Source of the DNA: Corynebacterium frankenforstense DSM 45800
GTDB taxonomy: Bacteria; Actinomycetota; Actinomycetes; Mycobacteriales; Mycobacteriaceae
Direction: 5' to 3'
Length of the DNA stretch: 64,000 bases
Assembly: GCF_001941485.1 (NCBI RefSeq)
Contig: NZ_CP009247.1
Coordinates: 2,294,001-2,358,000 of the forward strand
The position numbers and the translations under genes were made by a program. This document shows, one piece after another, positions 1,939 to 61,836 of this stretch. Numbering within the stretch: position 1 is the first letter of the stretch; each line of letters opens with the position of its first letter. The notes under the pieces are model-generated. The model made no database searches. It was given only the letters and a program-made list of their open reading frames with translations, and was not told the DNA's origin.

Positions 1939-4046
1939 CAGTGGTAGTCCACCTCCACTGCCTTCTCGCCGGCGACGGCGGCGCCCGTGTGGGCGGCGCG
2001 CACCGCGGCGACCTTCTTCTTGTTGGTCACGACCACCGGGGTGGTCAGGTCGACGCCCTTCTCGCGCAGGTCGGCGGCCGCCACACGGGCGATCGGGGTG
2101 CCGATCTCGACGGTGTCGCCCTTGGCGACGAGCACCTCGAGGCCCTCACCGGCCAGCTTGACGGTGTCCAGGCCGATGTGGACGAGGACGTCCAGGCCCT
2201 CGGCCGTGCGCAGCGCGACGGCGTGGCGGGTCTTGGGCACCATGATCACGGTGCCGGCGACCGGGGAGCCGTAGACCAGCTCGTCGGTCTCGGCCGGCTT
2301 GACCGCGAAGCCCTCGCCGACCGCACCGCCGGAGAACGCGGGGTCCTCGACCTTGTCGAGCGCGATGACCTCACCGGCCACCGGGCAGGCGAGCTCGGTG
2401 GTGCCGGCGACGGGCGCGGACGCGCCCGCGTCGGCCGGCGCGGCGTCGGCAATCGGGGCGGAAGTCGCGGAGACGGCGACCGGGTGCTGCATCTGGCGGC
2501 GCACCTCGTCGTGCACGAACTGCACGTTCGGGCCGATGACGACCTGGACGGCCTTGTGCGAGGGGTGGATGACGCCGGGCACGTTGGCGGAGCGGATCAC
2601 CGCGTCGTCGACCAGCTCGGGGTCGACCACGGTGGTGCGCAGGCGGGTGGCGCAGTACTCCATGGAGTCGATGTTGTCGGCGCCGCCCAGGCCCTGCAGG
2701 ATGCGGGCGGACTTGGCCACCAGCGGGTCGTCGGAGGAGAAGACCTCCTCGGTGGCCTCGGCGGCGGCCTCGTCGTCCTCACGACCCGGGGTCTTGAGGT
2801 TGAGCCAGCCGATGACCAGGTAGAACACGCCGAAGTAGACGAAGAAGTAGATCACGCCGAGCAGGAGCAGCATCCACCACTTGTTGGCGAGCGGGTTCTG
2901 GGAGCTCAGCAGCATGTCGACCAGGCCGGCGGAGAAGCCGAAGCCCGCGGTCCACTGGAAGAAGGAGGCGATGGCCAGCGAGATGCCGGTCAGCAGCGCG
3001 TGCAGGACGAACAGCAGCGGCGCGGCGAACATGAAGGAGAACTCGAGGGGCTCGGTGACGCCGGTCAGGAAGGCGGCCAGCGCGCCGGCGAGCATCAGGG
3101 AGCCGACGACCTTGCGGCGCGGGCCCTTGGCGCGCAGCGTCATGGCGAGCGCGGCGCCGGGCAGACCGAACATCATCACCGGGAAGAAGCCGGCCTGGTA
3201 CTGGCCGATCACGCCGACGACGTCACAGGTCGAGCCGTCCCAGACACCGGGGCAGGTCGCCGCGCTGGTGGCCGCGTCGGCGGCGGCGAGGGTGTCCGCG
3301 CCACCGAGGAACTTGCCGATGTCGTTGATGCCGACGACGTCGAACCAGAAGATCGAGTTCAGGGCGTGGTGCAGGCCGGTCGGGATGAGCAGGCGGTTGA
3401 CCACGCCGTAGATGCCGGCGCCGAACGCGCCCATGCCCTGGATCCACTGGCCGAAGTGGAACAGGCCGTTGTAGAGCAGCGGCCACAGCAGGTAGAAGAC
3501 CCCGGCCAGCACGATCGAGAAGAAGGAGGTCAGGATCGGCACGAGGCGGCGGCCCGAGAAGAACGCCAGGGCGTCGGGCAGGCGGGTCTGGTGGAACCGG
3601 TTGTAGGTCCACGCCGCCAGGATGCCGACGACGATGCCGAGCAGCACGTTGCCGGTGCCGATCGCGTCCCAGCCCTGGGAGGCCCAGTCGAGGGCCTCCT
3701 GGCCGGTCAGGGCCTCGGGGTCCTCGATGCCGCGGTAGCCCGCGACGGCCTCGGGGCCGACGATGAGGGTGACGGTGACGAATCCGAGGAAGCCGGACAG
3801 CGCGGCCGCACCGTTGGAGTCCTTGGCCAGGCCGAAGGCGATCGCCACGGCGAAGAGGACACCGAGATTGCCCAGGACGGCGTTACCGGCCGCCTGGAAG
3901 ACACTTGCGACGGTGGCGAGGTTGTCGCCGCCGTTCGACTCGAGGAAATAGCCGACGCCCATCATGAGGGCGGCGACGGGCAGGACCGCCACCGCGCCCA
4001 TGAGGGCTTTGCCTAGCTTCTGAAGAGGAGCCATGATCTTGTCCAC
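1938..4046 (-). CDS. nagE: PTS N-acetylglucosamine transporter EIICBA
   Basis: Takes up and phosphorylates an amino sugar, probably GlcNAc given the flanking nagA and nagB. 702 residues: a multi-span EIIC domain (about 1-415, with IPTGLHHALN near 221 and GVTEPLEF near 329), EIIB with phosphorylated Cys465 in SMEYCATRLR, an Ala/Pro linker (about 525-550), and EIIA with His623 in VLVHIGLDTV. The GTG at 4046 has AAAGGAGAAC about 4-7 nt upstream; an in-frame ATG at 4034 is poorly spaced. The EIIB-EIIA linker is encoded over one copy of the dispersed motif (2439-2454). A glucose PTS is the alternative, but the EIIC sequence reads like NagE. Confidence 0.9.
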   Translation of the reverse strand: MDKIMAPLQKLGKALMGAVAVLPVAALMMGVGYFLESNGGDNLATVASVFQAAGNAVLGNLGVLFAVAIAFGLAKDSNGAAALSGFLGFVTVTLIVGPEAVAGYRGIEDPEALTGQEALDWASQGWDAIGTGNVLLGIVVGILAAWTYNRFHQTRLPDALAFFSGRRLVPILTSFFSIVLAGVFYLLWPLLYNGLFHFGQWIQGMGAFGAGIYGVVNRLLIPTGLHHALNSIFWFDVVGINDIGKFLGGADTLAAADAATSAATCPGVWDGSTCDVVGVIGQYQAGFFPVMMFGLPGAALAMTLRAKGPRRKVVGSLMLAGALAAFLTGVTEPLEFSFMFAAPLLFVLHALLTGISLAIASFFQWTAGFGFSAGLVDMLLSSQNPLANKWWMLLLLGVIYFFVYFGVFYLVIGWLNLKTPGREDDEAAAEATEEVFSSDDPLVAKSARILQGLGGADNIDSMEYCATRLRTTVVDPELVDDAVIRSANVPGVIHPSHKAVQVVIGPNVQFVHDEVRRQMQHPVAVSATSAPIADAAPADAGASAPVAGTTELACPVAGEVIALDKVEDPAFSGGAVGEGFAVKPAETDELVYGSPVAGTVIMVPKTRHAVALRTAEGLDVLVHIGLDTVKLAGEGLEVLVAKGDTVEIGTPIARVAAADLREKGVDLTTPVVVTNKKKVAAVRAAHTGAAVAGEKAVEVDYH

Positions 4047-4138
4047 GGCCGTTCTCCTTTAGTAGAGCCGGCGGGGGCGACCTTCCGCGGAGGCCCCGTC
4101 GGGAAATGGCTGCACCCGGTTTCTCCGGGCTGAAAGTC

Positions 4139-4861
4139 TTAGATGTCCGCCTTCGCCAACGCGTCCAGCAGATTGCGGTAGTGGCTCCGCACCGCCGCGC
4201 GGTAGGCGCCGGGGTCCTCGGCGACGATGGCGTCGACCATCTCGTCGTGGGAGTCGACGCTGCTGGCCCACTCCTTCGAGGTGGCCAGGCCGAGGGCCGG
4301 GGCGACCTGCATCTGCACCCGCCACATCGCGTCCGAGAGCTCGCGGACCAGGTGGTTCTTCACGTGGCTCATCAGCAGGGTGTGGAAGTGGTGGTCCTCC
4401 TCGAGGAAGGGCTCACCCGCGTCGGCGTGGGCGCGCATCTGCGCGACGACCCCGTGCAGCTCCTCGGCCTGCTCGGGCGTCAGCGCACCCATCAGTCCGG
4501 TGGTCACGGCGGTGTCGAGTCCGTAGCGGACCTCGACGATGTTGCGCATGCGCTCCACGGAGCGTTCGGAGTCCACGAGCGTGCGGAAGACCAGGCCCTC
4601 CACCAGCGGGCTCAGCGACATCCCCGACACGAACGTGCCGTAGCCGTGGCGCACCTCGACGATGTCGAGCGTGGCCAGGGTGCGCACGGCCTCGCGGATC
4701 GAGGAGCGCGAGCACCCGAGGTCTTCGCACATGTCCGCCTCGGAGGGCAGCAGGTCCCCCTCGACGAGTCCGTGGTTGCGGATGTAGTCCTTGATTCCCT
4801 GGGCCGCCGCCTGGGCGGCCGAGCGGTGCCGGAGGCGTCCCCGGCCGGTGAAATCTGGCAC
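4139..4861 (-). CDS. FCD-type GntR transcriptional regulator of the nag genes
   Basis: DNA-binding regulator, probably repressing or tuning the GlcNAc operon immediately downstream. It has an N-terminal winged helix (LLPSEADMCEDLGCSRSSIR, about residues 38-57) and a C-terminal helical FCD effector domain with an acidic/His metal-site pattern (EEDHHFHTLLMSHV and DSHDEMVDAI). The GTG at 4861 is preferred because GGTGGAG lies 8 nt before it; an upstream in-frame GTG at 4906 would add 15 residues. The palindrome at 4948-4959 overlaps its promoter, suggesting autoregulation. It resembles corynebacterial NanR-type regulators, but the effector cannot be read from sequence. Confidence 0.85.
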   Translation of the reverse strand: MPDFTGRGRLRHRSAAQAAAQGIKDYIRNHGLVEGDLLPSEADMCEDLGCSRSSIREAVRTLATLDIVEVRHGYGTFVSGMSLSPLVEGLVFRTLVDSERSVERMRNIVEVRYGLDTAVTTGLMGALTPEQAEELHGVVAQMRAHADAGEPFLEEDHHFHTLLMSHVKNHLVRELSDAMWRVQMQVAPALGLATSKEWASSVDSHDEMVDAIVAEDPGAYRAAVRSHYRNLLDALAKADI

Positions 4862-4947
4862 TTCTAGGTCTCCACCTGTAGTTCGTGGACCCGGGCGCCG
4901 ACCCACCGGAGGGCTCCGGGGGCGACGTCTGGAGTCAGAGGTCGAAA

Positions 4948-5123: not shown

Positions 5124-5139
5124 GCTTGCCGACGCCGCG
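5124..5139 (+). repeat. dispersed motif copy
   Basis: GCTTGCCGACGCCGCG, an exact copy of the 16-base dispersed motif, in the gap between ispF and the GntR regulator. The rest of 4970-5163 is GC-rich with repeated GCGTGCC/GGCACGC patches and holds no convincing gene. Confidence 0.6.
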
Positions 5140-7256: not shown

Positions 7257-7272
7257 GCTTGACGACGTCCCG
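7257..7272 (+). repeat. dispersed motif copy
   Basis: GCTTGACGACGTCCCG in the divergent carD/lpqE gap (7164-7503). The rest of this 340-base gap holds the two promoters and GC-rich sequence without a gene. Confidence 0.6.
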
Positions 7273-10434: not shown

Positions 10435-10450
10435 CGGGGCGTCGTCAAGC
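10435..10450 (-). repeat. dispersed motif copy
   Basis: The minus strand reads GCTTGACGACGCCCCG, ending three bases before the carbonic anhydrase stop codon, in the 118-bp gap 10335-10452. The gap also has a CCGGGC/GCCCGG hairpin at 10361-10378. Confidence 0.55.
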
Positions 10451-11126: not shown

Positions 11127-12176
11127 ATGACCTCCCCCGACACCACCTTCCCCACCCCTGATCCGGCGGCGCTGCGCGCGCTGGTCGGCTGGTTCGCGGC
11201 CAACGGGCGGGACCTGCCGTGGCGTGCGGAGGACACGAGCGCGTGGGGGGTGCTGCTCTCCGAGGTGATGAGCCAGCAGACCCCCGTCGCCCGCGTGGCC
11301 CCGGTGTGGCGCGAGTGGATGGGGCGCTGGCCCACCCCGGCCGACTTCGCCGCGGCGGGACGTGCCGAGGTACTGCGCGCCTGGGGCCGGCTGGGCTACC
11401 CGCGCCGGGCGCTGCGTCTGCACGAGTGCGCGGCCGCGATCGTGGAGCGCCACGGCGGGGAGGTCCCCGCCGGCGTCGCGGAGCTCGAGGATCTGCCGGG
11501 CATCGGCACCTACACCGCCCGCGCGGTGGCCTGCTTCCACTTCGGCGCGAACGTCCCCGTGGTCGACACCAACGTCCGCCGCGTGCACCGCCGCCTTATC
11601 GAGGGCACGTACCTGCCCGGCCCGGCGCGCGCCGCGGACCTGCGCAAGGTCGCCGCGCTCCTGCCCGGCCCGCTTGCCGACGCCGCGCTGCCCGGCCGCG
11701 CGCGCACGCGTGACGTCGCCGCGCCGACGGCCGACGGGGACGGCTCCGCCGCCCCCGCGGCTGCCCCGCGGGAGGACGGACTGCGCGCGGAGCGGAAGGA
11801 AGCGGAACTGCCCGCGGGGCCGGAGATATCGGTGGCGCTGATGGAGCTGGGTGCCCTGGTGTGCACCGCCTCCTCCCCCGACTGCGACGTCTGCCCCGTG
11901 CGCCCCTGGTGCGCCTGGGTGGCCGCCGGCTCCCCGGAGCCGAGCGCCGAGGAGCTGGCCGGGGCGAAGAAGCGGGTGCAGAAGTTCGCGGGTACCGACC
12001 GGCAGGTGCGCGGCAAGATCATGGCCGTGCTGCGCGCGGCCGAGCACCCGGTGGACAAGGCGGAGATCGACGCCGTGTGGCCCGACGCCGCGCAGCGCTC
12101 GCGCTGCCTGTTCTCGCTGATCGAGGACGGGTTGGCCGAGCAGGACGCCGACGGCCGCTTCCGCCTGCCGGCCTGA
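11127..12176 (+). CDS. mutY: A/G-specific adenine glycosylase
   Basis: Removes adenine mispaired with 8-oxoguanine in base-excision repair. 349 residues: the catalytic helix-hairpin-helix (EDLPGIGTYTARAVA), the catalytic Asp in VVDTNVRRVH, and a [4Fe-4S] cluster motif C-x6-C-x2-C-x5-C in CTASSPDCDVCPVRPWC. About 40 residues rich in Ala, Arg and Pro are inserted before the cluster region. Just upstream of that insert, a copy of the dispersed motif (11672-11687) encodes LADAA. The C-terminal Nudix-like domain is short. Confidence 0.93.
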   Translation: MTSPDTTFPTPDPAALRALVGWFAANGRDLPWRAEDTSAWGVLLSEVMSQQTPVARVAPVWREWMGRWPTPADFAAAGRAEVLRAWGRLGYPRRALRLHECAAAIVERHGGEVPAGVAELEDLPGIGTYTARAVACFHFGANVPVVDTNVRRVHRRLIEGTYLPGPARAADLRKVAALLPGPLADAALPGRARTRDVAAPTADGDGSAAPAAAPREDGLRAERKEAELPAGPEISVALMELGALVCTASSPDCDVCPVRPWCAWVAAGSPEPSAEELAGAKKRVQKFAGTDRQVRGKIMAVLRAAEHPVDKAEIDAVWPDAAQRSRCLFSLIEDGLAEQDADGRFRLPA

Positions 12177-12276: not shown

Positions 12277-13671
12277 ATGTTCATGCACCTACGCAATCTT
12301 CGGCGCGCGACGGTGACGCTCGCGGCGTCGGCAATCGCGGCCGCCTGCCTGACCGCGCCCGCCCACGCCCAGTCCTCGACGCCGGACGCGCTGATCTCGG
12401 ACCCGGCCGACCCGTTCTACTCCGCGCCGGCCGACGTGCCGCAGGTGCCGGGGACCGTCATCCGCGAGCAGCTCGCCCCGCACATGCTCAACCTCGCGGA
12501 CCCGACCGCGCGCCAGCTCGGGCTCGACGAACCGCAGCTGCCCGGGCAGGCGCACCGGATGATGTACTCGTCGACCGACCGCGACGGGCGCCCGGTCGCG
12601 GTCACCGGCGTGGTCATCGAGCCCTCCGTGCCCTGGACCGGGGCCGGGCCGACCCCGACGCTGGTCATGGCCGCCGGCACGCGCGGGCAGGGCGACGCCT
12701 GCGCGCCGTCGAAGGGGCCGTGGCTGCTCGGTGCGGTCGACCCGCAGAACGGGGCCGCGGGCATCAACTACGAGCTGCCCGTGATGTACGCCGCGGCGAT
12801 GCGCGGGATGCGCGTGGTCATGACGGACTACATGGGCCTGGGCACCGAGGGGCTGCACCACTACGTCCACCGCACCGAGCAGGCGCACGCGGTGCTCGAC
12901 TCGGCACGCGCGGGGCTCGATCTGGTCGGCGCGCCCGCCGACTCCCCGGTGGCCTTCTACGGCTACTCGCAGGGCGGCGGGGCCGCGGCGGCCGCCGCCG
13001 AGGAGGCCGCGGGTTACGCGCCCGGGCTGAACGTCGCCGGCTCCTACGTCGGCGCTCCCCCGGCCGAGCTGACCAGCGTGCTCAGCGGGGTGGACGGCTC
13101 GACGATCGCGGGCGTGCTCGGCTACGCGGTCAACACCGCCACCGACGTCGACCCGGCCGTCGACGAGGCCTTCGACCGTCAGGCCTCCGCGCAGGCCCCG
13201 GCGGAGCTGCGCCGGCTGGCGAACGCCTGCATCGGCGACACCGCCCTGAGCTGGGCGTTCCGCCACTCCGCCGAGCTGATAGAGAGCGGGCGCCCGCTGT
13301 CCGAGGTGCTCGAGGAGGAGCCCGCGATCGGCGAGTACCTCAGCGAGCAGGCGCTCGGGCTGCACCCGATCAGCGCGCCGATGCTCGTGCTCAGCGGGCG
13401 CCACGACGACCTGATCCCGCACGCGCAGGCGCGCGGGATGGCCGTGGGCTACTGCGCAGCCGGCGGCACGGTGGACTTCCGCAACGACGGGCTGCCGGAG
13501 CTGCCGCCCAAGACGGGGCTCAACCACGCGATCCCGGTGTTCTCGCACGCGGGTCCGGCCCTGGACTGGGTGCAGGACCGGTTCAACGGGGTGCCGGCGG
13601 CGAGCAACTGCGACTCGCTTTTGGCCGGCGGGCCCGAGCAGGTCCTCGCCGTGCCCGGAGTGAGTTCTTAG
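12277..13671 (+). CDS. secreted alpha/beta-hydrolase lipase
   Basis: Exported triacylglycerol lipase or esterase of the secretory lipase (LIP) family. 464 residues. A Sec signal peptide ends at AHA-QSS near residue 31. The nucleophile is Ser232 in GYSQGGGA; probable acid and base are in SGRHDDLIP and LNHAIPVF. Cys143 and later Cys residues may form disulphides. The signal peptide is partly encoded by a copy of the dispersed motif (12321-12336). A paralogue of identical length lies at 16093-17487. An ATG at 12283 is an alternative start. Confidence 0.9.
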   Translation: MFMHLRNLRRATVTLAASAIAAACLTAPAHAQSSTPDALISDPADPFYSAPADVPQVPGTVIREQLAPHMLNLADPTARQLGLDEPQLPGQAHRMMYSSTDRDGRPVAVTGVVIEPSVPWTGAGPTPTLVMAAGTRGQGDACAPSKGPWLLGAVDPQNGAAGINYELPVMYAAAMRGMRVVMTDYMGLGTEGLHHYVHRTEQAHAVLDSARAGLDLVGAPADSPVAFYGYSQGGGAAAAAAEEAAGYAPGLNVAGSYVGAPPAELTSVLSGVDGSTIAGVLGYAVNTATDVDPAVDEAFDRQASAQAPAELRRLANACIGDTALSWAFRHSAELIESGRPLSEVLEEEPAIGEYLSEQALGLHPISAPMLVLSGRHDDLIPHAQARGMAVGYCAAGGTVDFRNDGLPELPPKTGLNHAIPVFSHAGPALDWVQDRFNGVPAASNCDSLLAGGPEQVLAVPGVSS

Positions 13672-17487: not shown

Positions 17488-17494
17488 AAGAAGA

Positions 17495-17554
17495 TTGACG
17501 ACGCCCGCGGGGCGCACGGTGGCTGACCACTGTGCGCCCCGCGGGCGTCGTCAA
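17495..17554. terminator. near-perfect 28-bp hairpin made of two inverted motif copies
   Basis: A 23-bp perfect stem (17495-17517 with 17532-17554) continues through GGTGG/CCACT to a CTGA loop, giving 28 pairs with one G-U. Each arm starts with the dispersed motif (TTGACGACGCC). It lies 7 nt past the lipase stop and about 50 nt past the convergent clpC stop. It is probably a bidirectional terminator, although no U-tract follows. Confidence 0.75.
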
Positions 17555-17605
17555 GCGCGGGCGCGGGGCGCGCTCACGCGCACCCCCGCGGCGTCGGGAA
17601 GCGAA

Positions 17606-20445: not shown

Positions 20446-20855
20446 ACGCGCGGGCGTGACCGGATCTTGCACTCTCGCGCCCCCTCTGCCAGCCCATGCT
20501 TTCCGACGTCCCGTCGGTGCAGGTGACAGCGCCCGCGCGGCGTTGTACGCCGCTAGCGAACAGGGCCCGCGGAAGGGTCCGGGCGTACCGACCGGGGACG
20601 TCGGTCGAGGACCGGGATCGGCCTTGTCGCAATGTCCATGTCCAGCGCCGCAGGCATGACACAGAGACCCCACGGCGGCCCCGTCGCCGAGCGCGGCGAT
20701 ATGCCCGGGGCCGAACGCAGCGGCCCTCGACCTGCTCGCAGTGACCGGCATAGTCTTGGGGACAGTCGCAATTGTCTTCGCCGCAGCAGCGCGCACGCCC
20801 CGCCGCGTTCGCGTGCGGGAAAAGGTCTCGGACACCGACAGTTAGGACGAAGCCG

Positions 20856-22942: not shown

Positions 22943-22958
22943 GCTTGCCGACGCCGCG
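22943..22958 (+). repeat. dispersed motif copy
   Basis: GCTTGCCGACGCCGCG upstream of the broken exporter, in the otherwise gene-poor stretch 22700-23198. Confidence 0.6.
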
Positions 22959-23198: not shown

Positions 23199-25547
23199 TC
23201 ACTTACGGCGGCGCAGCAGCCTCCCGAGGCGGTCGCGCTCGGCCTTGCGGCGCTTTCCGCCGCCGCCCTTCTCCGGGGCGTCGACCGGGTCCAGCCGGCC
23301 GGTCGTCTCGGCGTCTGCGGCATCGCCGATCCCGGCCGCACGGTCGCGGCCCGAACCGGTCACCCCCGTGTCGCCGAAGCCCGCGGCGCTCGCGCCGCCG
23401 GCCCCGCCGCCCTCGGCGTGGCGGCCGGCCGTGCCCGTACCGGCGACGTCGTCATGCGCGGCGTCGTCAATCCCGGCGCCGACGGAGACGCGCTCGCGCT
23501 CCCGCTCGTGGGCGTCGACCTGCTCGGCGTAGAAGTCGTCCTCCTCGCGCAGCATCAGCTCGTCCTGCTCGCGGGCGAAGCCGTTGATGCGGGCGACGCG
23601 GACGACGATCGTCAGAGCCAGCGGCACCAGGATGAAGAAGAGCAGTCCGGCGATGCCAGCCCAGAAGGTCGCGTCCCAGCGGCCGTCGGTGGCGCGGATG
23701 AAGCCGTAGCGGGCGTAGGTCATCGGGCTGGTCGGGTGGAAGAAGCGGAACAGCTGCGGGATGATCGGCTGCGGCCACACGCCGCCGAAGACCAGCACGC
23801 CGTAGCCGTACATGCCCAGCGAGAAGATGCCGCCGATCACGCGGCCGAACAGCGCGCGGAAGAACTGGTAGCTCGCGGCGCCGGCCATCGCGATCAGGGC
23901 GAAGACCACGACGGTGGCCAGCCAGCTGGCCGGGGACCAGCCCATGAAGGTCGAGATCAGGCCCATCGCGCAGACGGTGACGAAGTTGATCAGGCTCAGC
24001 GCGCCGAAGGCCTTGAGCACCGGGCCGACCGAGCGCGAGCGCGACCAGCGGCCGGTCACGTGCGGGACGAGCATGGCGGTCAGCGCCATGATCAGGAAGC
24101 CGATGACCACGACAAGGATCAGCGAGATACCGCTGGTGACCTCCTTGGCCGTCGGGTCGTTGACGTCGATGTTGGTCGTGACCGGGTGCAGGTTCGTCTC
24201 GTCGAAGGCGACCGGGGCGGCGGCCTGCTTGGCCGAGCCGTCGACGTTCTCGAAGGTCGGGGCGCGTCCCGCGCCCTCCTCGAGCCGCGTGCTCAGCTCC
24301 CCGGTGCCGTCCTTGAGGCGGGTGGTGCCGTCGTCGAGCTGGGCCGAGCCGTCCTTCAGGCGGGTCGTGCCGTCCTTCAGGCGCGTGGTGCCGTCGTGCA
24401 GCTGGGTCGCGCCGTCGGAGAGCTCCGTGGCACCGTCGTCGAGCTGGTAGATGCCGTCGGCCAGGCGGTTCATGCCGTTGAGGTAGGGCGCCGAGGGGTC
24501 GTTGAGGTTGTAGCGCATCTCGGCGGTGCCGTTCTTCAGCTTGTTCAGCTGGGCGACCATGTTGTCGGGGTTGTTGGCGTTGAAGCGGCCGACGATGCCC
24601 TCGAGCTGGGCGGCCTGCTCGTGCTGGCCGACGCCGTGCAGCAGGTCGATGACCGGCTGCAGGGCGGGTGCCACGGACCGGACCTGCTCAAGCAGCGGGA
24701 TGAGCAGGCCGGTCAGCTGGCCCACGCCGTCGTCGATCTGCGCGGCACCGTCGCCGAGCTGCTGCGTGCCGCCCTGCAGCTGGCCGATGCCGTCGGTCAG
24801 CTGGGTGGTGCCGTCCTTGAGGCGGGTGGTGCCGTCGGTCAGGCGCGTGGTGCCGTCGTGGAGCTGGGTCGCGCCGTCGTCGAGCTGGCCCACGCCGTCC
24901 TTGGCCTGGGTGGTGCCGTCCTTGAGCTGGGTGGCGCCGTCGTCGAGCTGGCCGGCGCCGTCGGCGGCGGCGCGCAGGCCGTCGCCGAGCTCGTTGATGC
25001 CGCCGATGATCTCCTGGCTGTAGCCCTCGGCGATGGAGCTGGCGACCTGCGCCTGGATCTGCGGCACCAGGCCCGAGGTCAGCAGGGCCTGGTTGGAGCC
25101 GTTGTAGTCGTTGTAGGCGATGGTCACCGTCGGCTGGACGGGTTCCTCGCTCATCACGGACAGGACGTTGGTGGAGAAGTCCTCCGGGATGTTCATCACG
25201 AACAGGTACTCGCCGGTGACCAGGCCCTGGTCGGCGTCCTCGCGGCTGACCTCCTCGAAGGCGAGGTAGTCCGCGGCGGCGAGGCCCTCGACGACCTGGT
25301 CGCCGTAGTTGTTCTGCTCGCCGTCACGCTCGGCGCCGTCGTCCTCGTTGACGACGGCCAGCTTGGTCGAGTGCAGGTACTGGGAGGGGTCCCACATCGC
25401 CCACATGAAGGTGATCGCGCCGATCAGGGGCGTCACCAGGAGGAAGACGATGAGGGTGCGCGCCAGCATGGTCTTCGGGCGCCAGTCGAGTGCGGAGAAG
25501 AGGCCGCGGCACTGCCTACGGGTCGCTGTCGCTTCTGAGCTCGGCAT
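23199..25547 (-). CDS. YhgE/Pip-family membrane protein with LxxG heptad repeats
   Basis: 782-residue membrane protein of the phage-infection-protein/ABC-2-like family; function uncertain, proposed for export or virus receptors elsewhere. One N-terminal membrane helix (TLIVFLLVTPLIGAITFMWA), a large external region with two blocks of seven-residue repeats (such as QLDDGATQL and RLKDGTTQL), then five or six C-terminal helices and a charged cytoplasmic tail. The tail contains a dispersed motif copy (23457-23472). ATG 25547 follows AAGGACAACC; in-frame upstream sequence has no ribosome-binding site. Confidence 0.85.
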   Translation of the reverse strand: MPSSEATATRRQCRGLFSALDWRPKTMLARTLIVFLLVTPLIGAITFMWAMWDPSQYLHSTKLAVVNEDDGAERDGEQNNYGDQVVEGLAAADYLAFEEVSREDADQGLVTGEYLFVMNIPEDFSTNVLSVMSEEPVQPTVTIAYNDYNGSNQALLTSGLVPQIQAQVASSIAEGYSQEIIGGINELGDGLRAAADGAGQLDDGATQLKDGTTQAKDGVGQLDDGATQLHDGTTRLTDGTTRLKDGTTQLTDGIGQLQGGTQQLGDGAAQIDDGVGQLTGLLIPLLEQVRSVAPALQPVIDLLHGVGQHEQAAQLEGIVGRFNANNPDNMVAQLNKLKNGTAEMRYNLNDPSAPYLNGMNRLADGIYQLDDGATELSDGATQLHDGTTRLKDGTTRLKDGSAQLDDGTTRLKDGTGELSTRLEEGAGRAPTFENVDGSAKQAAAPVAFDETNLHPVTTNIDVNDPTAKEVTSGISLILVVVIGFLIMALTAMLVPHVTGRWSRSRSVGPVLKAFGALSLINFVTVCAMGLISTFMGWSPASWLATVVVFALIAMAGAASYQFFRALFGRVIGGIFSLGMYGYGVLVFGGVWPQPIIPQLFRFFHPTSPMTYARYGFIRATDGRWDATFWAGIAGLLFFILVPLALTIVVRVARINGFAREQDELMLREEDDFYAEQVDAHERERERVSVGAGIDDAAHDDVAGTGTAGRHAEGGGAGGASAAGFGDTGVTGSGRDRAAGIGDAADAETTGRLDPVDAPEKGGGGKRRKAERDRLGRLLRRRK

Positions 25548-26051
25548 GGTTGTCCTTCGGTTGAGGGCGCCGCCTTCCGGCGACGCCTGCGTGAACTCCG
25601 GTGGCGTCCGGGGGCGACCCGGACGACACCTATATGTCGTGGGCCACATCTTCGCATGCCTAATAACTCATGTCATGTGTTTGGGAAACATATTTGTTCC
25701 TGCCCCTCCTTCCCCGGCGGCCGCTTCCCCACTAACAGCCGTTCGCAACATGCGCCTCACCAGTAACAACAGCGCAGATGCCCCCTCCCCTGTCGCCGCA
25801 CCCCCGACGCGTAAAAAATTTGGCCGCGCACTCGCCGTAAGCCACGGAAAACACCGGCGCCGGCGGGCAGAAACACGACTCCCCCGCCCTTCCGCAGCGC
25901 ACGAAAAAACGCGCCACCCGGAGGTGGCGCGCCTCGTCGAACCCGCGGGACGTCGTCAATCGGACGGCGCCCGCGGGGCCGACACCATCGCCGGCACCGG
26001 CACAAGCGCCTGCGCCGACACCATCGCCGGCGCCGGCACCGGAACCGGGGC
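25548..26051. other. 504-bp gap with AT-rich promoter zone and direct repeats
   Basis: 25630-25700 is AT-rich and probably holds the promoter of the YhgE/Pip gene. 25946-25961 is a dispersed motif copy (minus strand). 25979-26004 and 26014-26039 are near-identical 26-bp direct repeats. No gene is supported. Confidence 0.6.
25904..25931 (-). terminator. intrinsic terminator of lysS
   Basis: A 9-bp stem, CGCGCCACC with GGTGGCGCG, has a CGGA loop and is followed on the minus strand by six Ts. It lies about 120 nt after the lysS stop. Confidence 0.85.
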
Positions 26052-27795: not shown

Positions 27796-28659
27796 CTAGC
27801 CGGACTGCTCGGCCAGCCCGCGGAAGCCCACGCCGAGCGGCACGCCGACGTTGTCGGTCAGGCGCACCTCGCCGAAGCGCGCGGCGACCAGCAGGCGCGC
27901 ATCCCCCTCGGCCGGCGGCTCGCCGAGCAGGTGGGAGCGCAGCTCGAGGTACTCCGGCTCCACGCCGGCCGCCTTCAGGACCGCCCCGGCGGTCTCCAGC
28001 ACGGCCTCGGCACCGTCCTCGGCGACGTGCGCGCCGGCGGTCAGCGCCGCCGAAAGGGCGATGGCGCGCTCGCGCATCTCAGGCGGGACCTGCGCGTTGC
28101 GCAACGAGAGCGCCAGGCCGTCGGGCATGCGCACCGTGGGAAAGCCGTGCACGTGCACGGGCAGGTGCAGGTCGGTCACGGCGTGCTGAACGTCGACGAG
28201 CAGCTCATAGTCCTTCTCGCCGATAAAGACGTCGGTGGCCTGGCTGGCGCCCAGCAGCGCGAGGATGCGGGTCAGCTCCCGGCCGCGCTCCCCGACGGGC
28301 TCGAGCCCCCGGTCGACGGGCAGCACACGGGTGCGCCCGGTAAGTGCCGGGTCGTCGGCCGGCAGGTGGAAGACGGCGTCGGCGCCGCAGGCGGCGAGCC
28401 GGGCGCGCAGGTCCGGCGTCTCTGTTTCGCTTGCCGACGTCCCGGGCTCGGCGTCGAGCGCCGCCTCACCGTCGACTGCGACGACGGTGACGGCGCCGCG
28501 CAGGCGGTGGGCGGCCTCGGTCAGGGCGAGGTGGCCGCCGTGGACGTCGCGGCCCAGGGGCACGAGCACCACGGGGCGGCCGGTGCGCCGCATCGCGTGG
28601 CTGAGGCGGGCGAGCAGCGTGGCGTCGACCTCGGCGGCGGTGCCGAACTCGAAAGGCAT
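27796..28659 (-). CDS. panC: PanC-like pantothenate synthetase, degenerate N-terminal motif
   Basis: PanC joins pantoate and beta-alanine. 287 residues. The second half is canonical ([10 protein letters not shown] and [15 protein letters not shown]). The usual MGALHEGH nucleotide motif is GRDVHGGH: both His remain but the Met-Gly pair is lost. A short insert (about residues 70-85) carries a dispersed motif copy (28429-28444). Neither panD nor coaX is adjacent, unlike mycobacteria. It may be a weak or repurposed enzyme. It starts 9 nt after the upstream gene. Confidence 0.75.
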
Positions 28660-34568: not shown

Positions 34569-37259
<2,691 letters not shown>

Positions 37260-38165: not shown

Positions 38166-39182
38166 TCAGACCTCCGTGATGCGCCCGGCGCGCCGTGCCA
38201 GGCGCAACCCGCCGCCGAGATCGACGGGGCCCTGCCCGTGCCAGTCGGTGATCAGGCGGGCCAGGTCGCTTAACGACGCCGCGGTGACCCGCCCGCCGCG
38301 GTTCCGTACCAGGTGTGCGAGTGCGCGCGTGCGCACGGCCGCCGGCACCGCCGCCAGGGCGGCGACGTCGGTGGCGTCGACGCCGCGTGCCCACTCCTCG
38401 AGTGCGGCGGAGTCCGCGGCGACGCGGGCGGCCGCGGCGGCCAGCGGGCCTGCGGCCGCCCCGCCGACCAGGTCGTCGAGCAGCGGCAGGACCTCGGCGC
38501 GCACGCGCACCCGGCGGAAGGCGGGGTCGCTGTTCTGCGGGTCGGTCCACGGCTCCAGGCCGAGCTCCGCGCAGGCGGCGGCGGTGTCGGCGCGCGCGAC
38601 GCCCAGCAGCGGGCGGCGCAGCTCGTGGGCGGGGTCGGCGGGGTCGGGGCCGCGCTCGGGCATGCCGGCGGGGTTTCCGCGCAGGGCGCCGAGCAGGTAG
38701 GTCTCGGCCTGGTCCTCGCGGGTGTGGGCGATGAAGCAGACCCGCCCGGCCGAGGCCCGTGCCAGCGCCCGGTAGCGGGCGTCGCGGGCGGCGGCCTCGG
38801 TGCCCGCTCCCCCGGGCCCGGCGCCGGCGCGGGCGTCGACGCGCACCACGCGGGCGGTGGCCCCCAGGCGGCGGGCGGTGGCGGCGGCGCACTCAGCGAC
38901 CTCGGCGGAGCCGGCCTGCAGGCCGTGGTCGACGACGACGGCCTCCATGGCGAGGCCCTCGGCCAGCAGCGCGGCGAGCAGCGCGGTCGAGTCGGGTCCA
39001 CCCGACAGCCCGCACGCCGCGGGCTTCGCAGGCTCAGCCCGCGACGGTGAGCCGACTCGGGACGTCGCACGCGCGACGTCGGCAATCGGGTGGGTGCGCA
39101 GGTGCCGACGCACGGCCACGCGCAGGCGGCCGAAGGCGGGCGGGTCGTGCGGCAGGGGCACCTCGCCGAGGGCGCGGGGCAC
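38166..39182 (-). CDS. tilS: tRNA(Ile)-lysidine synthetase
   Basis: Modifies C34 of tRNA-Ile(CAU) so it reads AUA. 338 residues. The PP-loop is GLSGGPDSTALL; HTREDQAETYLL and RPLLGVARADT follow. The N-terminus has an extra segment (about 31-52) that includes a dispersed motif copy (39072-39087). GTG 39182 starts 4 nt after dacB ends. A near-copy of the motif lies at 38268-38283. Confidence 0.92.
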   Translation of the reverse strand: MPRALGEVPLPHDPPAFGRLRVAVRRHLRTHPIADVARATSRVGSPSRAEPAKPAACGLSGGPDSTALLAALLAEGLAMEAVVVDHGLQAGSAEVAECAAATARRLGATARVVRVDARAGAGPGGAGTEAAARDARYRALARASAGRVCFIAHTREDQAETYLLGALRGNPAGMPERGPDPADPAHELRRPLLGVARADTAAACAELGLEPWTDPQNSDPAFRRVRVRAEVLPLLDDLVGGAAAGPLAAAAARVAADSAALEEWARGVDATDVAALAAVPAAVRTRALAHLVRNRGGRVTAASLSDLARLITDWHGQGPVDLGGGLRLARRAGRITEV

Positions 39183-45914: not shown

Positions 45915-47279
45915 ATGAGCAACGACACCCAGACCCAGGCCGTGCGCGAGTCCGTCGCCGGCGACCGCGAGACCGTCTTCCGCGAACTCTCCGAGCTCGT
46001 CTCCTTCAACTCCGTGCACGGTGACCCGGAACTGACCGACCAGACCGCCGCCGCGGCGGACTGGGTCGCGAAGGCCTTCACCGCCGCCGGGCTCGACGTC
46101 GACAAGCTCGAGACCACCGACGGCTCCCTCGCCGTCGTCGGCCGCCGCGCCGCCAACGGCGGCGCACCGACCGTCCTCCTCTACTGCCACTACGACGTCG
46201 TCGCCGCCGGCGCACGCGAGGCGTGGGAGACCGACCCGTTCACCCTGACCGAGCGCGACGGGCGCTGGTACGGCCGCGGCTCGGCCGACTGCAAGGGCAA
46301 CGTCGCCATGCACCTGGCCGCCCTGCGCGCCGTCGAGGCCGCCGGCGGCACCGACCTCGGCCTCATCCTCGTGGCCGAGGGCTCCGAGGAGCAGGGCGGC
46401 GCCGGCCTCGACGACCTCGTCGCCGAGCGCCCGGAGCTGACCGACGCCGACGCGATCCTCATCGCCGACACCGGCAACGCCGCCGTGGGCACCCCGACGC
46501 TGACCACCTCGCTGCGCGGTGGCGCCCAGGTCACCGTCACCGTGCGCACCCTCGAGGCCGCCATGCACTCCGGCATGTTCGGCGGTGCGGCCCCGGACGC
46601 CGCCTTCGCCCTGGTGCGCATGCTCGACTCGCTCCGCGACGTCTCGGGCCGCACCGTGATCGAGGGCGTGGACACCTCGGCGACCTGGCCGGGCGAGCCC
46701 TACACCGAGGAGGCCTTCCGCGCCGACGCCGGCGTGCTCGACGGCGTCAGCATCATGGGCACCGGCGGCGACCAGCCCTCCGACCTGGTCTGGGCCCGCC
46801 CCGCGGTGACCCTGACCGGCTGGACCTCCACCCCGGTCGACGAGGCCGTCAACGCCGTGCCCGCCACGGCCAGCGCACGGCTGAACCTGCGCGTGGCGGC
46901 CTCCGACGACCCGGCCGAGGTCGCCGAGAAGCTCGCCGAGCACCTGCGCAACCACGCCCCGTGGGGCGCGCAGGTCGAGGTCTCCATCGACGACGTCAAC
47001 GAGGGCTTCGACTGCGACACCTCGCGCCCCGCCGTGCACCTGCTCGGCGACTGCCTCGCCGAGGCCTACGGCGCCGCCGAGTGCTCCGCCATCGGCTCCG
47101 GCGGCTCGATCCCGCTGACCAAGGTGCTCCAGGACGCGCACCCGGACGCGGAGATCGCCCTGTTCGGCGTCGAGGAGCCGCGCACCGGCATCCACGCGCC
47201 CAACGAGTCGGTCGACCCGACCGAGATCGAGAACCTCGCCGTCGCCGAGGCCCTCTTCCTGCTGCGTTACGGAAAGTAG
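45915..47279 (+). CDS. M20-family dipeptidase
   Basis: 454-residue zinc peptidase in the cytoplasm. Ligands and catalytic residues: His/Asp in YCHYDVV, Asp in GRGSADCKGN, the catalytic Glu pair in EGSEEQGG, Asp in IADTGN, and His in TGIHAPNES. A dimerisation domain (RGGAQVTVTV region) sits in the middle. ATG 45915 gives a leaderless start; in-frame sequence upstream crosses the groEL promoter and is not coding. Confidence 0.9.
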   Translation: MSNDTQTQAVRESVAGDRETVFRELSELVSFNSVHGDPELTDQTAAAADWVAKAFTAAGLDVDKLETTDGSLAVVGRRAANGGAPTVLLYCHYDVVAAGAREAWETDPFTLTERDGRWYGRGSADCKGNVAMHLAALRAVEAAGGTDLGLILVAEGSEEQGGAGLDDLVAERPELTDADAILIADTGNAAVGTPTLTTSLRGGAQVTVTVRTLEAAMHSGMFGGAAPDAAFALVRMLDSLRDVSGRTVIEGVDTSATWPGEPYTEEAFRADAGVLDGVSIMGTGGDQPSDLVWARPAVTLTGWTSTPVDEAVNAVPATASARLNLRVAASDDPAEVAEKLAEHLRNHAPWGAQVEVSIDDVNEGFDCDTSRPAVHLLGDCLAEAYGAAECSAIGSGGSIPLTKVLQDAHPDAEIALFGVEEPRTGIHAPNESVDPTEIENLAVAEALFLLRYGK

Positions 47280-51300: not shown

Positions 51301-51578
51301 CGGAGAAGATGCCGCGCAAGATCGCCGCCTCGCCGCCGATACCGGTGCCGGTGCCCGCCGGCGCCTCCGGTGCGGCGGAGACGGCCGCGGCCGAGAGACC
51401 CAAGCCCGACTGGACCGCCCACGCCCGCACCGCCGCCGACGAGGCCGCCGAACGCGCGGCCGCGGACGCGGCCGGCGGCTCGGACGCCACCGGCAAGGGC
51501 GAGTCAGTCGCCCACGGCGCCCCACGCGGCGTCGGCAAGCACGACACCGACAACGACACCGACGGAAAGGAGCGCTGA
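48372..51578 (+). CDS. mnhA: Mrp Na+/H+ antiporter subunit A fused to B
   Basis: Proton-driven cation antiporter subunit, membrane. 1068 residues: about 20 helices homologous to complex I NuoL (YVFWEITSVLSFLLVGYYGE; FPFHFWLPGAMAAPTPVSAY), then a MnhB domain (about 815-960, AGHNAPGGGFAGGLVAALAL) and a charged Ala/Arg-rich cytoplasmic tail of about 100 residues. A dispersed motif copy (51525-51540) lies in the tail. GTG 48372 has AAGGGGAG upstream. First gene of a six-gene operon. Confidence 0.94.
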   Translation: MLILLCALAVTSAAAPPLIRAMGRAGFGLLALVPAAGFVWTARHFVDGNFADGGTLTATYRWLDPLHLNLEFRMDGLSALFSLIILGVGALVLLYCWGYFDSAPRRLAKFGGEMVLFATAMYGLVISDAMLLMYVFWEITSVLSFLLVGYYGERASSRRAAGQALMVTTLGGLAMLVGIILFGSTTGVWNLSEIPGIEDLAGQPYIVVSVILILAGALSKSAIFPFHFWLPGAMAAPTPVSAYLHSAAMVKAGIYLVARLAPDFNVVGAWYLVIIPMGLMTMLVAGWMALRQKDLKLILAYGTVSQLGFIMSVVAIGSREAQLAGLALTFGHSLFKATLFMIVGAIDHTSGTRDVEEISGLGRKRPFMFALAVIAAASMAGIPPLFGFVAKETALDKVMDEPLLVGMPSSLMIVGLVLGSILTMAYSLFFLYGAFATKPGDHPSGGGTSEAIATMHPYGPKLWLSPVVLTVFTVGLGLWPAPLDGAVAQYLGSRFPGTEASHLALWHGLTPALGLSAIIIAGGAVMFWQRSVVHRLQLAEPALGDANAAYDAVISFLRTISLRLTASTQRGSLMINLGVIFAVLAAMPLTALIFGDRDDVRMEVWASPWQAMAATIIIFAALGATRTHNRLSGVIMVGVTGYGLAMIFALHGAPDLALTQVLVETIQMVIFMLVLRKMPTTTEWKGTPKGNRARAWLSAATGLSVTIVALFAMNARSERPISELMPALAKEIGHGANTVNVLLVDLRAWDTMGEVSVIVIAAVGVASLIYGTRSFSRSSHRPTLRAVGRRWLSADIETEKAQNRSLMVDVVTRLAFPAMMLVSLYFFFAGHNAPGGGFAGGLVAALALCLRYLAGGRPELEATLPVDPSRILGTGLIAAVAGAVWPMFIGRPPLSSEVWDLTVPLVGDMHVPSALLFDAGVYIIVVGLAMHILTSLGGRIDLDEERRRQRARDRARSVARATERRRASARARANANAEKMPRKIAASPPIPVPVPAGASGAAETAAAERPKPDWTAHARTAADEAAERAAADAAGGSDATGKGESVAHGAPRGVGKHDTDNDTDGKER

Positions 51579-59130: not shown

Positions 59131-59346
59131 TCACAACCCCCGGTCGCGCAGCCGCTCGAGGCGCGCGATCAGCAACGGGTGCGCCGCGCGCGCGTCGGCG
59201 TCGTCAATCAACCTGTTCAACCGCTGGTAGTACCGCACCGGCGAGATCCCCAGGCGCTCCCGGATCGCCTCGTCGCGCGCGCCGGGCGAGCGCGGGGCGT
59301 GTTCGGCGAACTCGAGGAGGTCCGCATCGGTGGCCGGGGTGGACAT
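59131..59346 (-). CDS. DUF3263 small helix-turn-helix-like protein (Rv0430-like)
   Basis: 71 residues, helical, with a DNA-binding-like segment ([20 protein letters not shown]); function unknown. ATG 59346 is 6 nt after a TACAGT -10 shared with the divergent def promoter. It includes a dispersed motif copy (59194-59209) at the codons for LIDDADA. Confidence 0.82.
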
Positions 59347-59349: not shown

Positions 59350-59358
59350 TAAACTGTA
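59350..59358. promoter_or_regulatory. overlapping divergent -10 boxes
   Basis: TAAACTGTA: TAAACT serves def (plus, ATG 7 nt on), and its complement TACAGT serves the DUF3263 gene (minus, ATG 6 nt on). The start codons are only 16 bp apart, so each -35 must lie in the other gene. Confidence 0.65.
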
Positions 59359-59362
59359 TGCC

Positions 59363-59956: not shown

Positions 59957-59966
59957 CCCCTCTCCC

Positions 59967-61001
59967 ATGAGTCCGCGTCCGCGCTCCGGGATCCGCCGCG
60001 TCTTCCGCACCGAAGCCCCCGGCCTCGGCGACCGGGTCACCGTGCGCCGGCGCGTGCCGGGCACCCGCCAGGTCACCGACGTCATCGGCCACATCGTCGC
60101 CCTCGAGCCGCTGACGGTGCGCCCGCAGGAGGTCGGGGGCCTGCCGTCGAACGCCGAGGCCGTGGTCATCGACCGCGCCCAGCTGGTCACCGTGCGCCTG
60201 CTGCCCGAGCGCACCGTGCGCAACGGCGACATCCGCGCCGTCGAGGTCGCCACCGCGCGCGCCTTCCCGGGCATCGAGCACTCGCTCAGCTCCGACGGGC
60301 AGTGGCTGCTGCGCGCCGGCGACGGCGTGACCGAGCGCTCCAACTCCGCCGCGCCGCTCGGCCCGCAGGCCGGCTTCGGCGCGGTGCCGCTGGACGAGAT
60401 CCTCGCCTTCTACGCCCGCCACTCGATGCCCGCGATCATCCAGGTCCCCGAGCGCATCGCGCGCCCGGCCGAGCGCCTCGCCGCCGGGCCCGAGTGGGAG
60501 TGGGGCCCGGAGATCCTGGTGATGACGCGCCCGCTTGACGACGCCGCGCCTGCCGCGACGTTGCCGGAGGGGTTCACGTTCGAGGTCGACGCCGCCCCCG
60601 ACGAGGAGTGGTACTCGCTCTACCACTTCCGCGGGCAGGCCCTGCCCCGGCACGCGCTGGAGCTTTTGCGCGGCGACATCGACGGCACCATGAGCTTCGG
60701 GCGCATCCGCGCCGCGGACGGGCGCACCGCCGCGATCACCCGCGGCACCGTCACCGCCGACGACGCCGGGCGCTCCTGGCTGGGGCTCTCGGCCGTCGAG
60801 GTCTCCCCGGACTTCCAGCGCCACGGGCTGGGCAGGGCGATCACCGCCGGGATGCTCGCCTGGGGTGCGGGCGCCGGCGCCGGCCAGGCGTTCCTGCAGG
60901 TGGTGCACACCAACACCGCGGGCATCCGCCTCTACCGCTCCGCGGGCTTCGCCGAGCACCACCGCCACCGCTACGCGCACCGGCGGGCGACCTCGGGATA
61001 G
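59967..61001 (+). CDS. GNAT-family N-acetyltransferase (Rv0428c-like)
   Basis: 344 residues. The N-terminal half is a SH3-like/dinucleotide domain of unknown use; the C-terminal half is GNAT with the acetyl-CoA loop VSPDFQRHGLGRAI and VHTNTAGIRLYRSAGF. A linker copy of the dispersed motif (60533-60548) encodes PLDDAAP. It begins 10 nt after def, so it is probably co-transcribed; substrate unknown. Confidence 0.85.
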   Translation: MSPRPRSGIRRVFRTEAPGLGDRVTVRRRVPGTRQVTDVIGHIVALEPLTVRPQEVGGLPSNAEAVVIDRAQLVTVRLLPERTVRNGDIRAVEVATARAFPGIEHSLSSDGQWLLRAGDGVTERSNSAAPLGPQAGFGAVPLDEILAFYARHSMPAIIQVPERIARPAERLAAGPEWEWGPEILVMTRPLDDAAPAATLPEGFTFEVDAAPDEEWYSLYHFRGQALPRHALELLRGDIDGTMSFGRIRAADGRTAAITRGTVTADDAGRSWLGLSAVEVSPDFQRHGLGRAITAGMLAWGAGAGAGQAFLQVVHTNTAGIRLYRSAGFAEHHRHRYAHRRATSG

Positions 61002-61004
61002 GGT
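60999..61004 (+). promoter_or_regulatory. leaderless -10 box of xthA
   Basis: TAGGGT overlaps the GNAT stop codon and is 7 nt before the xthA ATG. Confidence 0.4.
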
Positions 61005-61011
61005 GGTGGCC

Positions 61012-61836
61012 ATGCGCATCGCCACCTGGAACGTCAACTCGGCGCGCACCCGCGCCGACCGTATGGCGGAGTTCCTGACCCGTCACGACGTCGACGTCCT
61101 CGCGGTCCAGGAGACCAAGTGCACCGACGAGAACTTCCCGGCCGAGCGCTTCGAGGACCTCGGCTACGAGGTCGCCCACGTCGGTTACAACCAGTGGAAC
61201 GGCGTGGCCGTCCTCTCCCGGGTCGGGCTCGAGGACGTCGCCGACCACTTCGACGGCCAGCCCGGCTTCACCAAGACCGGCGGGATCGACGAGGAGCGCG
61301 TCGAGGCCCGCGCCGTGGCGGCCACCTGCGGCGGCGTGCGCGTCTGGAGCCTGTACGTGCCCAACGGGCGCGCCATCGCCGACCCGCACTACCAGTACAA
61401 GGTGCGCTGGCTGTGGCGGCTGCGCGACGTCGTCAAGCAGGAGCTCGACGCCCACCCGGAGGCGCGCCTGGCGCTGATGGGTGACTTCAACATCGCCCCG
61501 CAGGACCACGACGTGTGGGACCGCGCCTTCTTCGAGGGCCGCACCCACGTCACCGAGCCGGAGCGCGCCGCCTTCGAGGGGCTGTGCGAGGCCGGCCTCG
61601 AGGAGGTCACCCGCGCACGCACCGGCGACACCCCGTACACCTACTGGGACTACACGGCCGGGCGCTTCCCGCGCAACGAGGGCATGCGCATCGACTTCCA
61701 GCTGGCCAGCGCCCCGCTCGCCGAGCGGGTCACCGGCGCCTTCATCGACGTCGACGAGCGCTCCGGCAAGGGCGCCTCCGACCACGCCCCGGTGGTGGTC
61801 GACTACGACGTCGCCGACTTCGACGCGGTGCGCTGA
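61012..61836 (+). CDS. xthA: exodeoxyribonuclease III / AP endonuclease
   Basis: Repairs abasic sites. 274 residues: ATWNVNSARTRAD, VLAVQETKC with the metal Glu, LMGDFNIAPQDHDVWD, MRIDFQLAS and the catalytic SDHAPVV. ATG 61012 is probably leaderless. A dispersed motif copy (61423-61438) lies in a helix here (RDVVKQEL). Confidence 0.95.
   Translation: MRIATWNVNSARTRADRMAEFLTRHDVDVLAVQETKCTDENFPAERFEDLGYEVAHVGYNQWNGVAVLSRVGLEDVADHFDGQPGFTKTGGIDEERVEARAVAATCGGVRVWSLYVPNGRAIADPHYQYKVRWLWRLRDVVKQELDAHPEARLALMGDFNIAPQDHDVWDRAFFEGRTHVTEPERAAFEGLCEAGLEEVTRARTGDTPYTYWDYTAGRFPRNEGMRIDFQLASAPLAERVTGAFIDVDERSGKGASDHAPVVVDYDVADFDAVR

Follow-up and report, generated by a model that had tools for sequence, protein, structure and literature searches.

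What maintains a short word that recurs 20 times in 64 kb of bacterial DNA? The question is raised by a 64,000-nucleotide stretch of the Corynebacterium frankenforstense DSM 45800 chromosome (contig NZ_CP009247.1, positions 2,294,001 to 2,358,000; hereafter the window), for which an initial annotation had reported a dispersed motif and had left two options, a spreading element or a selected DNA site. Every one of the 20 exact copies was recovered as the 13-mer GMTTGMCGACGYC (the minus-strand starts given earlier are those of a 16-mer and lie 3 or 4 bases below the 13-mer starts), and in agreement with the estimate that composition predicts far less than one copy, 100 dinucleotide shuffles of the window gave a mean of 0.07 and a maximum of 1. 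The wider pattern GMTTDHCGACGYC has 23 copies in the window because it takes in the 20 exact copies plus those at 20498, 38268 and 46095; the first two had been listed as near copies together with 32328 and 32457, which do not match the pattern, and the third was absent from the earlier list. Of the two options, the selected site is supported, with uptake as its best explanation, and the spreading element is not: we infer, by analogy with known systems, that the motif is probably a DNA uptake sequence (DUS), a self tag read in natural transformation.

The motif is over-represented genome-wide, well beyond composition and codon use. The whole-genome count that had been proposed as a check gave 443 exact copies of the 13-mer (224 forward and 219 reverse) in the single 2,604,152-base contig of this genome, designated G000, against 1 + 1 for the pattern read backwards, and the wider pattern gave 658 (331 + 327) against 2 + 1 for its control. 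A sample of 464 kb, made up of the window and 20 stretches of 20 kb, was used for detailed analysis. The core was strict, in that 86 exact copies were present and every single change within CGACG was seen 0 or 1 times; changes outside CGACG were frequent, including T to C at the fourth base (22) and G to T at the fifth (19). After the word SCG was preferred, directly before it G was avoided, and beyond ~16 bases conservation was weak, C being slightly favored at +21 and +24 alone. The full form in G000 is approximately HGMTTKHCGACGYCSCG and is non-palindromic. A codon-preserving shuffle, named at the outset as the comparison that could undo the claim, left the motif far above expectation: in 402 called genes (406,887 bases) from this sample of one genome, the strict form had 56 coding copies versus 6.15 on average in 100 shuffles (standard deviation 1.95, maximum 13) and the wider form 75 versus 8.13 (maximum 17). 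Codon use therefore does not explain the motif.

The placement of copies was analyzed for 114 occurrences of the form GMTTKHCGACGYC in the same 464 kb, with genes called from window-trained codon use. Forty of the 114 were not wholly within a gene versus 12.4% of the DNA, a 2.84-fold excess (p 3.5e-10), and the earlier count of seven intergenic copies among the 20 in the window was the same under our gene calls. Among the 74 coding copies, all 45 on the gene strand share one frame, reading x-[LI]-x-D-[AV], and the 29 antisense copies are distributed over three frames (14, 14 and 1). Copies are found in genes where the code tolerates them, and in excess outside genes. Polarity and spacing were assessed in the first 965 kb of G000, which start at a dnaA-recF-like region identified by eye. 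The numbers of plus and minus copies were 100 and 93, which disfavors a replication-polarized signal; over 106 motif-rich genomes there were 22,170 forward and 22,309 reverse copies (49.8% forward). Spacing was near-exponential and Poisson-like (Kolmogorov–Smirnov p 0.12, coefficient of variation 0.90, largest gap 21 kb), with a mildly higher density near the origin (193 of the 443 copies, p 0.005). Nine pairs of neighbors lay within 130 bases versus ~5 expected, and these comprised 6 inward-facing, 3 tandem and 0 outward-facing pairs.

Hundreds of copies of one non-palindromic word, in both orientations, occur in most of the Corynebacterium chromosomes tested. Copies of GMTTDHCGAYGYC numbered at least 100 in 106 of 151 genomes, 50–99 in 8 and fewer than 50 in 37. 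Two dialects were apparent among the 106 motif-rich genomes, CGACG in 96 and CGATG in 10. The latter was first found de novo in a genome with 0 strict CGACG copies (G143), where GCTTG[ACT]CGATG-type words occurred about once per 2 kb in an 80-kb sample and the full CGATG pattern had 550 copies genome-wide. For named species, whose genomes were reached via 26 of 80 named loci, counts included 413 in C. silvaticum, 424 in C. glaucum, 262 in C. haemomassiliense, 196 in C. wankanglinii and 109 in C. mastitidis, and low values of 19 in C. meridianum, 25 in C. jeikeium and 26 in C. dentalis; the highest in any genome examined was 906, in another Corynebacterium species. Seven genomes of Gordonia, Dietzia, Amycolatopsis and Streptomyces had 16 to 52 copies. 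A family-wide draw of 201 genomes included 185 from 30 genera other than Corynebacterium, and these had 7 to 118 copies (control counts 1 to 52), at most ~18 per Mb versus 255 per Mb in G000. High motif density is thus confined to Corynebacterium among the genomes tested.

The motif is also scarce in foreign DNA, as judged from small samples (the regions of one genome, and three phages). Seven regions of genome G006 that lie outside its collinear chain with the related genome G004 (61.9 kb) had 3 CGATG sites versus 31 in the other 98.1 kb (p 1e-4). By eye, their gene content includes transposase-like genes among others, and in one of them a ~5.8-kb stretch that is present in G004 occurs as a second copy. 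The non-collinear DNA of G004, two regions of 5.8 kb, had 0 of 36 sites (p 0.14), a sample too small to inform. Phages BFK20, phi673 and phi674 had 0 copies in 130.7 kb, a figure that stands without counts for the phages' own hosts. Separately, a 497-aa transposase-like gene was noted three times within 160 kb of G006 (loci L223 and L225), its first 60 residues being identical in all copies.

The two genomes just mentioned belong to sister groups on the tree and differ in dialect, G004 having 578 CGACG and 48 CGATG copies and G006 26 and 570, respectively. They were compared over a 92.4-kb collinear alignment (82.1% identity), in which 29 of 48 CGACG sites of G004 aligned gap-free to G006. Of these 29, 18 were CGATG in G006, 1 was unchanged and 10 were non-sites; 16 of the 18 switched sites differed from their partner at the C/T base alone. 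In the reverse view, 28 of 34 CGATG sites of G006 aligned, of which 18 were switched, 1 was unchanged and 9 were non-sites. The 25 of 82 sites that were unaligned or bore an indel (19 in G004 and 6 in G006) lay in part beyond the end of the partner's stretch. Two controls bear on this pattern. Non-motif CGACG words had turned to CGATG in only 110 of 407 cases (27%) versus 18 of 19 retained sites (p 8e-10), and the eight fixed bases were kept at 19 of 29 sites versus 46 of 196 composition-matched words (p 1.8e-6). On the basis of this near-complete one-base C to T change at retained sites, we interpret the difference between the sister species as an in-place change of recognition specificity.

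In a 58-genome tree, CGATG is the most frequent state in one subclade (9 genomes), which also holds one genome of unassigned dialect and two that are motif-poor. Within this subclade two lineages use CGACG (G004, G005, G108 and G073; G036 and G050), and these appear to be two returns to that dialect. The returned lineages retain 48 to 70 CGATG copies versus a median of 14 over the 96 CGACG genomes, and their six genomes are among the nine with the highest CGATG counts, the others being G092 and G051, both absent from the tree, and G011 (54). Such leftover copies are what a changed reader specificity would leave.

Trees of genes adjoining the tad locus, read by eye and without support values, split Corynebacterium at its base into two clades, A and B. 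TadA and ComEC scores assign 27 or 28 of the 37 motif-poor genomes to clade B (the jeikeium type), and the trees include only a few of these. Clade B has one TadB/C-like protein of 349–396 aa (7 of 7 loci read), whereas clade A has separate tadB and tadC genes (tad loci L107–L113). The median ComEC frame was 554 in the 106 motif-rich versus 706 in the 37 motif-poor genomes. In the com loci L051 and L195–L214, ComEC as called was 419–568 aa in 11 of 12 of the clade A type and 663 in G055, with no call in G098 and G041; in those of clade B it was 672–714 aa in 5 of 7, 539 in G010 and 483 in G015. The correlation of the motif with ComEC frame length and TadA score was set aside, since it probably mirrors the basal division into clades A and B. 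A related word, made up of a T tract, approximately three bases and then CGACGCC, occurs in eight motif-poor genomes whose TadA is of the clade B type and of which four are on the trees: copies of TTTNNNCGACGCC, balanced between the strands, number 73 to 223 in G033, G134, G071, G015, G010, G065, G147 and G080, versus 0 to 30 in the remaining 143 Corynebacterium genomes. The core CGACGCC is therefore common to both sides of the basal split. The uptake signal sequences (USS) of Pasteurellaceae are flanked by AT tracts, which the T tract of the clade B form resembles.

Motif loss within clade A concerns a group formed by G041, G061, G119 and C. meridianum and, apart from that group, G014, G132, G131, G083 with G128, and G081. 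The k-mer statistics of 22 to 149 kb revealed no clear other dialect in G014, G083, G041/G061/G119, G131/G132 or G081. The motif-less genome G014 was enriched for the palindrome TCATCGATGA (20 versus 3.0 expected, both strands; L087–L089, L231–L233, L104 and L202). In a sample of G127 (L067–L070, L109 and L207), the palindrome GGCGATCGCC, which resembles the cyanobacterial HIP1, was enriched (16 versus 3.0), as was GGGACGCCG (36 versus 11.0).

The closest parallels to the Corynebacterium motif are the uptake sequences of two Gram-negative families. As described in PMC3630211, the DUS of Neisseriaceae is likewise a short asymmetric word with a fixed core, variable flanks and many copies, with dialects that are one or a few bases apart and track phylogeny, and with dyad-symmetric pairs. 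The Corynebacterium word differs in being unrelated in sequence, in occurring in Actinobacteria with a Tad (Flp) rather than a type IVa pilus, and in having hundreds rather than thousands of copies; no relative of the Neisseria receptor ComP was identified in Corynebacterium, where a role in uptake is our proposal. Similarly, the USS of Pasteurellaceae (PMC1939737, PMC12616744) is an over-represented word whose counts fall sharply once a single base is mismatched; it has no orientation bias and accumulates through point mutation in permissive DNA; the Corynebacterium motif differs from it in sequence, phylum and pilus, and its part in uptake is again a matter of analogy. Micrococcus luteus, for its part, transforms using Tad pili, ComEA and ComEC (PMC6370729), the same actinobacterial gene classes that are present in Corynebacterium. 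However, the portion of that source consulted mentions no uptake sequence, and the motif was dense only in Corynebacterium among the genomes tested, a set in which M. luteus was not included.

Genes for such a machinery are present throughout the genus. ComEC (PF03772) and DprA (PF02481) were found in 151 of 151 genomes and a T2SSE ATPase above cut-off in 145, and all 20 tad loci read hold the tadA, tadB/C, flp and tadE families, with tadF called in 19. The tad locus of G000 encodes TadA (TIGR03819), two T2SSF-type proteins (one under the curated cut-off), a DUF4244 protein in the Flp position, TadE (NF041390, below cut-off) and a TIGR03816 TadE-like protein, and its com locus encodes ComEA (TIGR00426, PF12836) and ComEC (TIGR00360). 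The abundance of the motif, its strand neutrality, its dialects and the in-place switch are established from the sequences themselves. In those traits of distribution that were open to testing the motif resembles DUS and USS, the machinery genes are present, and the rival explanations are weak; on these grounds the uptake machinery is our candidate for the reader. We propose that a receptor on the cell surface, belonging to the Tad pilus or the ComEA system, would bind the word on extracellular DNA and thereby bias uptake, and that recombination of the incoming DNA would spread and repair copies at homologous sites (molecular drive). A one-base change in the preference of the receptor would then be followed by the chromosome, with relics of the old dialect remaining, and inward-facing pairs may be reused as transcription terminators. 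By analogy with ComP of Neisseria, candidate receptors would be the TadE/TadF minor pilins or ComEA.

It is important to note that several observations weigh against a DNA uptake sequence. The copy number per genome, at most 906 as seen here, is below the thousands of Neisseriaceae (PMC3630211), and in principle any sequence-specific chromosomal protein could give the same distribution. Some genomes of three other genera (g23, g15 and g5) had 60–118 copies of GMTTDHCGAYGYC versus ~11–40 for controls (e.g., 116 versus 11), a mild excess that is far under the Corynebacterium density. As ComEC, DprA and the Tad ATPase are near-universal, the presence of com and tad is no predictor of the motif, and there was no visible co-loss: com and tad genes are still recognizable in the motif-poor clade A genomes (G041, G061, G119, G014, G132, G083 and others) whose loci were read, a set that does not include the com locus of C. 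meridianum, and DprA is also retained. In G131 and G128 the tblastn alignments of tadA cross two stop codons, yet no stop lies within the ATPase domain of either. In G137, conversely, CGATG copies number 491 and large gaps interrupt comEA, comEC and holA, through either a recent deletion or an assembly fault; the G137 locus L254 (G137:C2:1650107-1658655) holds these three genes in pieces only, with two apparent internal gaps.

The receptor search singled out no residue. Alignment columns separating the CGATG genomes from the two CGACG lineages inside the CGATG clade numbered 14 in ComEC (some with gaps), 8 in TadB, 4 in TadC, 3 each in TadA and ComEA, 2 each in Flp and TadE and 1 in TadF, versus 2 in a helicase that served as the null. 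In a control based on residues exclusive to a pair of lineages, the two CGACG lineages had 5 in ComEC, whereas true sisters had 24 and other pairs as many as 14; in the remaining proteins the nine best pairs did not include the two lineages. Dialect is thus followed by no residue of TadA, TadB, TadC, TadE, TadF, Flp, ComEA or ComEC beyond what other groupings of the same genomes show. Both CGACG lineages gained a basic residue in TadE (R and K) and in ComEA (K and K), and the native CGACG genomes do not follow; given that the control showed nothing special, these residues are only a weak lead. The link between motif and competence is therefore unproven, since no receptor was found and the lineages that lost the motif keep com and tad.

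Among other readers, the one that survives best, although we think it unlikely, is a cytoplasmic chromosome-organizing or partition protein, of the nucleoid-associated or condensin-loading type, whose specificity has drifted between species. The chromosome-wide dispersion, the scarcity in islands and phages, the conserved orthologous sites and the specificity switch would all fit such a protein, as would the mild rise in density near the origin, the persistence of the motif in G137 with its broken-looking com genes, and motif losses without matching com or tad loss. It is less easily reconciled with the lack of orientation bias and the roughly random spacing, and loss in several lineages is unlike an essential organizer. 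Considerably less probable is a Chi-like recombination hotspot for a repair nuclease of the RecBCD/AdnAB type. Like Chi, the motif is a short, asymmetric, abundant and lineage-specific word, with hundreds of copies and dialects by lineage. However, Chi sites are expected to favor the leading strand and the motif has no strand polarity, either near the origin or over the 106 genomes, and a surplus outside genes and inward-facing pairs are not Chi traits.

There is very little to recommend a small mobile repeat, resembling repetitive extragenic palindromic (REP) or miniature inverted-repeat transposable (MITE) elements and spread by insertion. The copies are dispersed, in surplus outside genes and in part in inverted pairs, and some insertions are possible among the 25 of 82 majority-dialect sites that were unaligned or had an indel, which are otherwise uninformative. 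Nevertheless, the sister-species comparison that had been suggested to reveal clean presence or absence showed no insertion at the sites that aligned: 57 of the 82 sites align gap-free to the other dialect, the same word or a substituted non-site, so that aligned orthologous sites differ by in-place point substitution. Moreover, conservation is weak past ~16 bases, with only the C preferences at +21 and +24, and the same-strand coding copies keep a fixed frame (45 of 45). A by-product of codon or amino acid bias (e.g., L-D-D-A or L-A-D-A peptides), which the shared x-[LI]-x-D-[AV] reading of the same-strand copies might suggest, can hardly be entertained, being refuted by the codon-preserving shuffles (6 of the 56 coding copies) and at odds with the 40 of 114 copies that are not wholly coding and the 29 of 74 coding copies that are antisense.

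A DNA uptake sequence would have consequences beyond this locus. The initial annotation knew of no described corynebacterial motif like this one, and a non-exhaustive survey of the open-licence literature accordingly found none, nor any uptake sequence described for Corynebacterium or any other actinobacterium. On balance we lean towards the broader view that Corynebacterium possesses an uptake-sequence system, the first outside Neisseriaceae and Pasteurellaceae and also the first to be read via a Tad pilus, that most of its species can, or until recently could, undergo natural transformation, and that kin DNA is recognized by dialects of one core that switch genome-wide with receptor change. 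Uptake sequences have so far been described from two Gram-negative families, in which they serve as a code for sexual isolation. A third, independent origin in Actinobacteria would provide a further case of the rise, spread and change of such codes, with a dialect switch visible between sister species and with lineages that retain relics of the other dialect. It would also imply natural competence in a genus of industrial strains, skin commensals and pathogens, and would suggest giving the 13-base tag to DNA intended for the genetic manipulation of laboratory strains. Even with a reader other than the uptake machinery, a protein of evolving, genome-rewriting specificity across >100 species lacks an explanation.

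Table 1. Motif copies, wider-pattern copies and the hairpin in the 64-kb window
Feature	Sequence	Position	Strand	Context
Motif copy	GATTGCCGACGCC	2442..2454	-	In gene 1938-4001(-)
Motif copy	GCTTGCCGACGCC	5124..5136	+	Intergenic
Motif copy	GCTTGACGACGTC	7257..7269	+	Intergenic
Motif copy	GCTTGACGACGCC	10438..10450	-	Intergenic
Motif copy	GCTTGCCGACGCC	11672..11684	+	In gene 11127-12176(+)
Motif copy	GATTGCCGACGCC	12324..12336	-	5' end of gene 12313-13671(+)
Motif copy	GATTGACGACGCC	17493..17505	+	Arm 1 of inverted pair, between two convergent genes
Motif copy	GCTTGACGACGCC	17544..17556	-	Arm 2 of inverted pair, between two convergent genes
Hairpin from inverted pair		17495..17554	.	28-bp stem; terminator-like in position and shape
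Wider-pattern copy	GCTTTCCGACGTC	20498..20510	+	Intergenic
Motif copy	GCTTGCCGACGCC	22943..22955	+	Intergenic
Motif copy	GATTGACGACGCC	23460..23472	-	In gene 23199-25469(-)
Motif copy	GATTGACGACGTC	25949..25961	-	Intergenic
Motif copy	GCTTGCCGACGTC	28429..28441	+	Antisense, gene 27796-28659(-)
Motif copy	GCTTGCCGACGTC	32355..32367	+	Antisense, gene 32289-32795(-); next copy 27 bases on
Motif copy	GCTTGCCGACGTC	32382..32394	+	Antisense, gene 32289-32795(-)
Motif copy	GCTTGACGACGTC	34856..34868	+	Antisense, gene 34569-37259(-)
Wider-pattern copy	GCTTAACGACGCC	38268..38280	+	Antisense, gene 38166-39182(-)
Motif copy	GATTGCCGACGTC	39075..39087	-	In gene 38166-39182(-)
Wider-pattern copy	GCTTGTCGACGTC	46095..46107	-	Antisense, gene 45915-47279(+)
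Motif copy	GCTTGCCGACGCC	51528..51540	-	Antisense, near 3' end of gene 48372-51578(+)
Motif copy	GATTGACGACGCC	59197..59209	-	In weakly called gene 59131-59346(-)
Motif copy	GCTTGACGACGCC	60533..60545	+	In gene 59967-61001(+)
Motif copy	GCTTGACGACGTC	61426..61438	-	Antisense, gene 61003-61836(+)

The window itself holds one inverted pair (Table 1), whose hairpin is a predicted terminator by place and shape. Folding of 17485-17575 gave -75.6 kcal/mol (z -10.2), and 0 of 200 shuffles were equally stable; inverted uptake-sequence pairs likewise make such stems in Haemophilus (PMC5217627). The window also contains, at 32328-32394, near-tandem copies with a 27-base spacing (the exact copies at 32355 and 32382, and a degenerate one at ~32328), and the gene in which they lie appears by eye to be folB-like.

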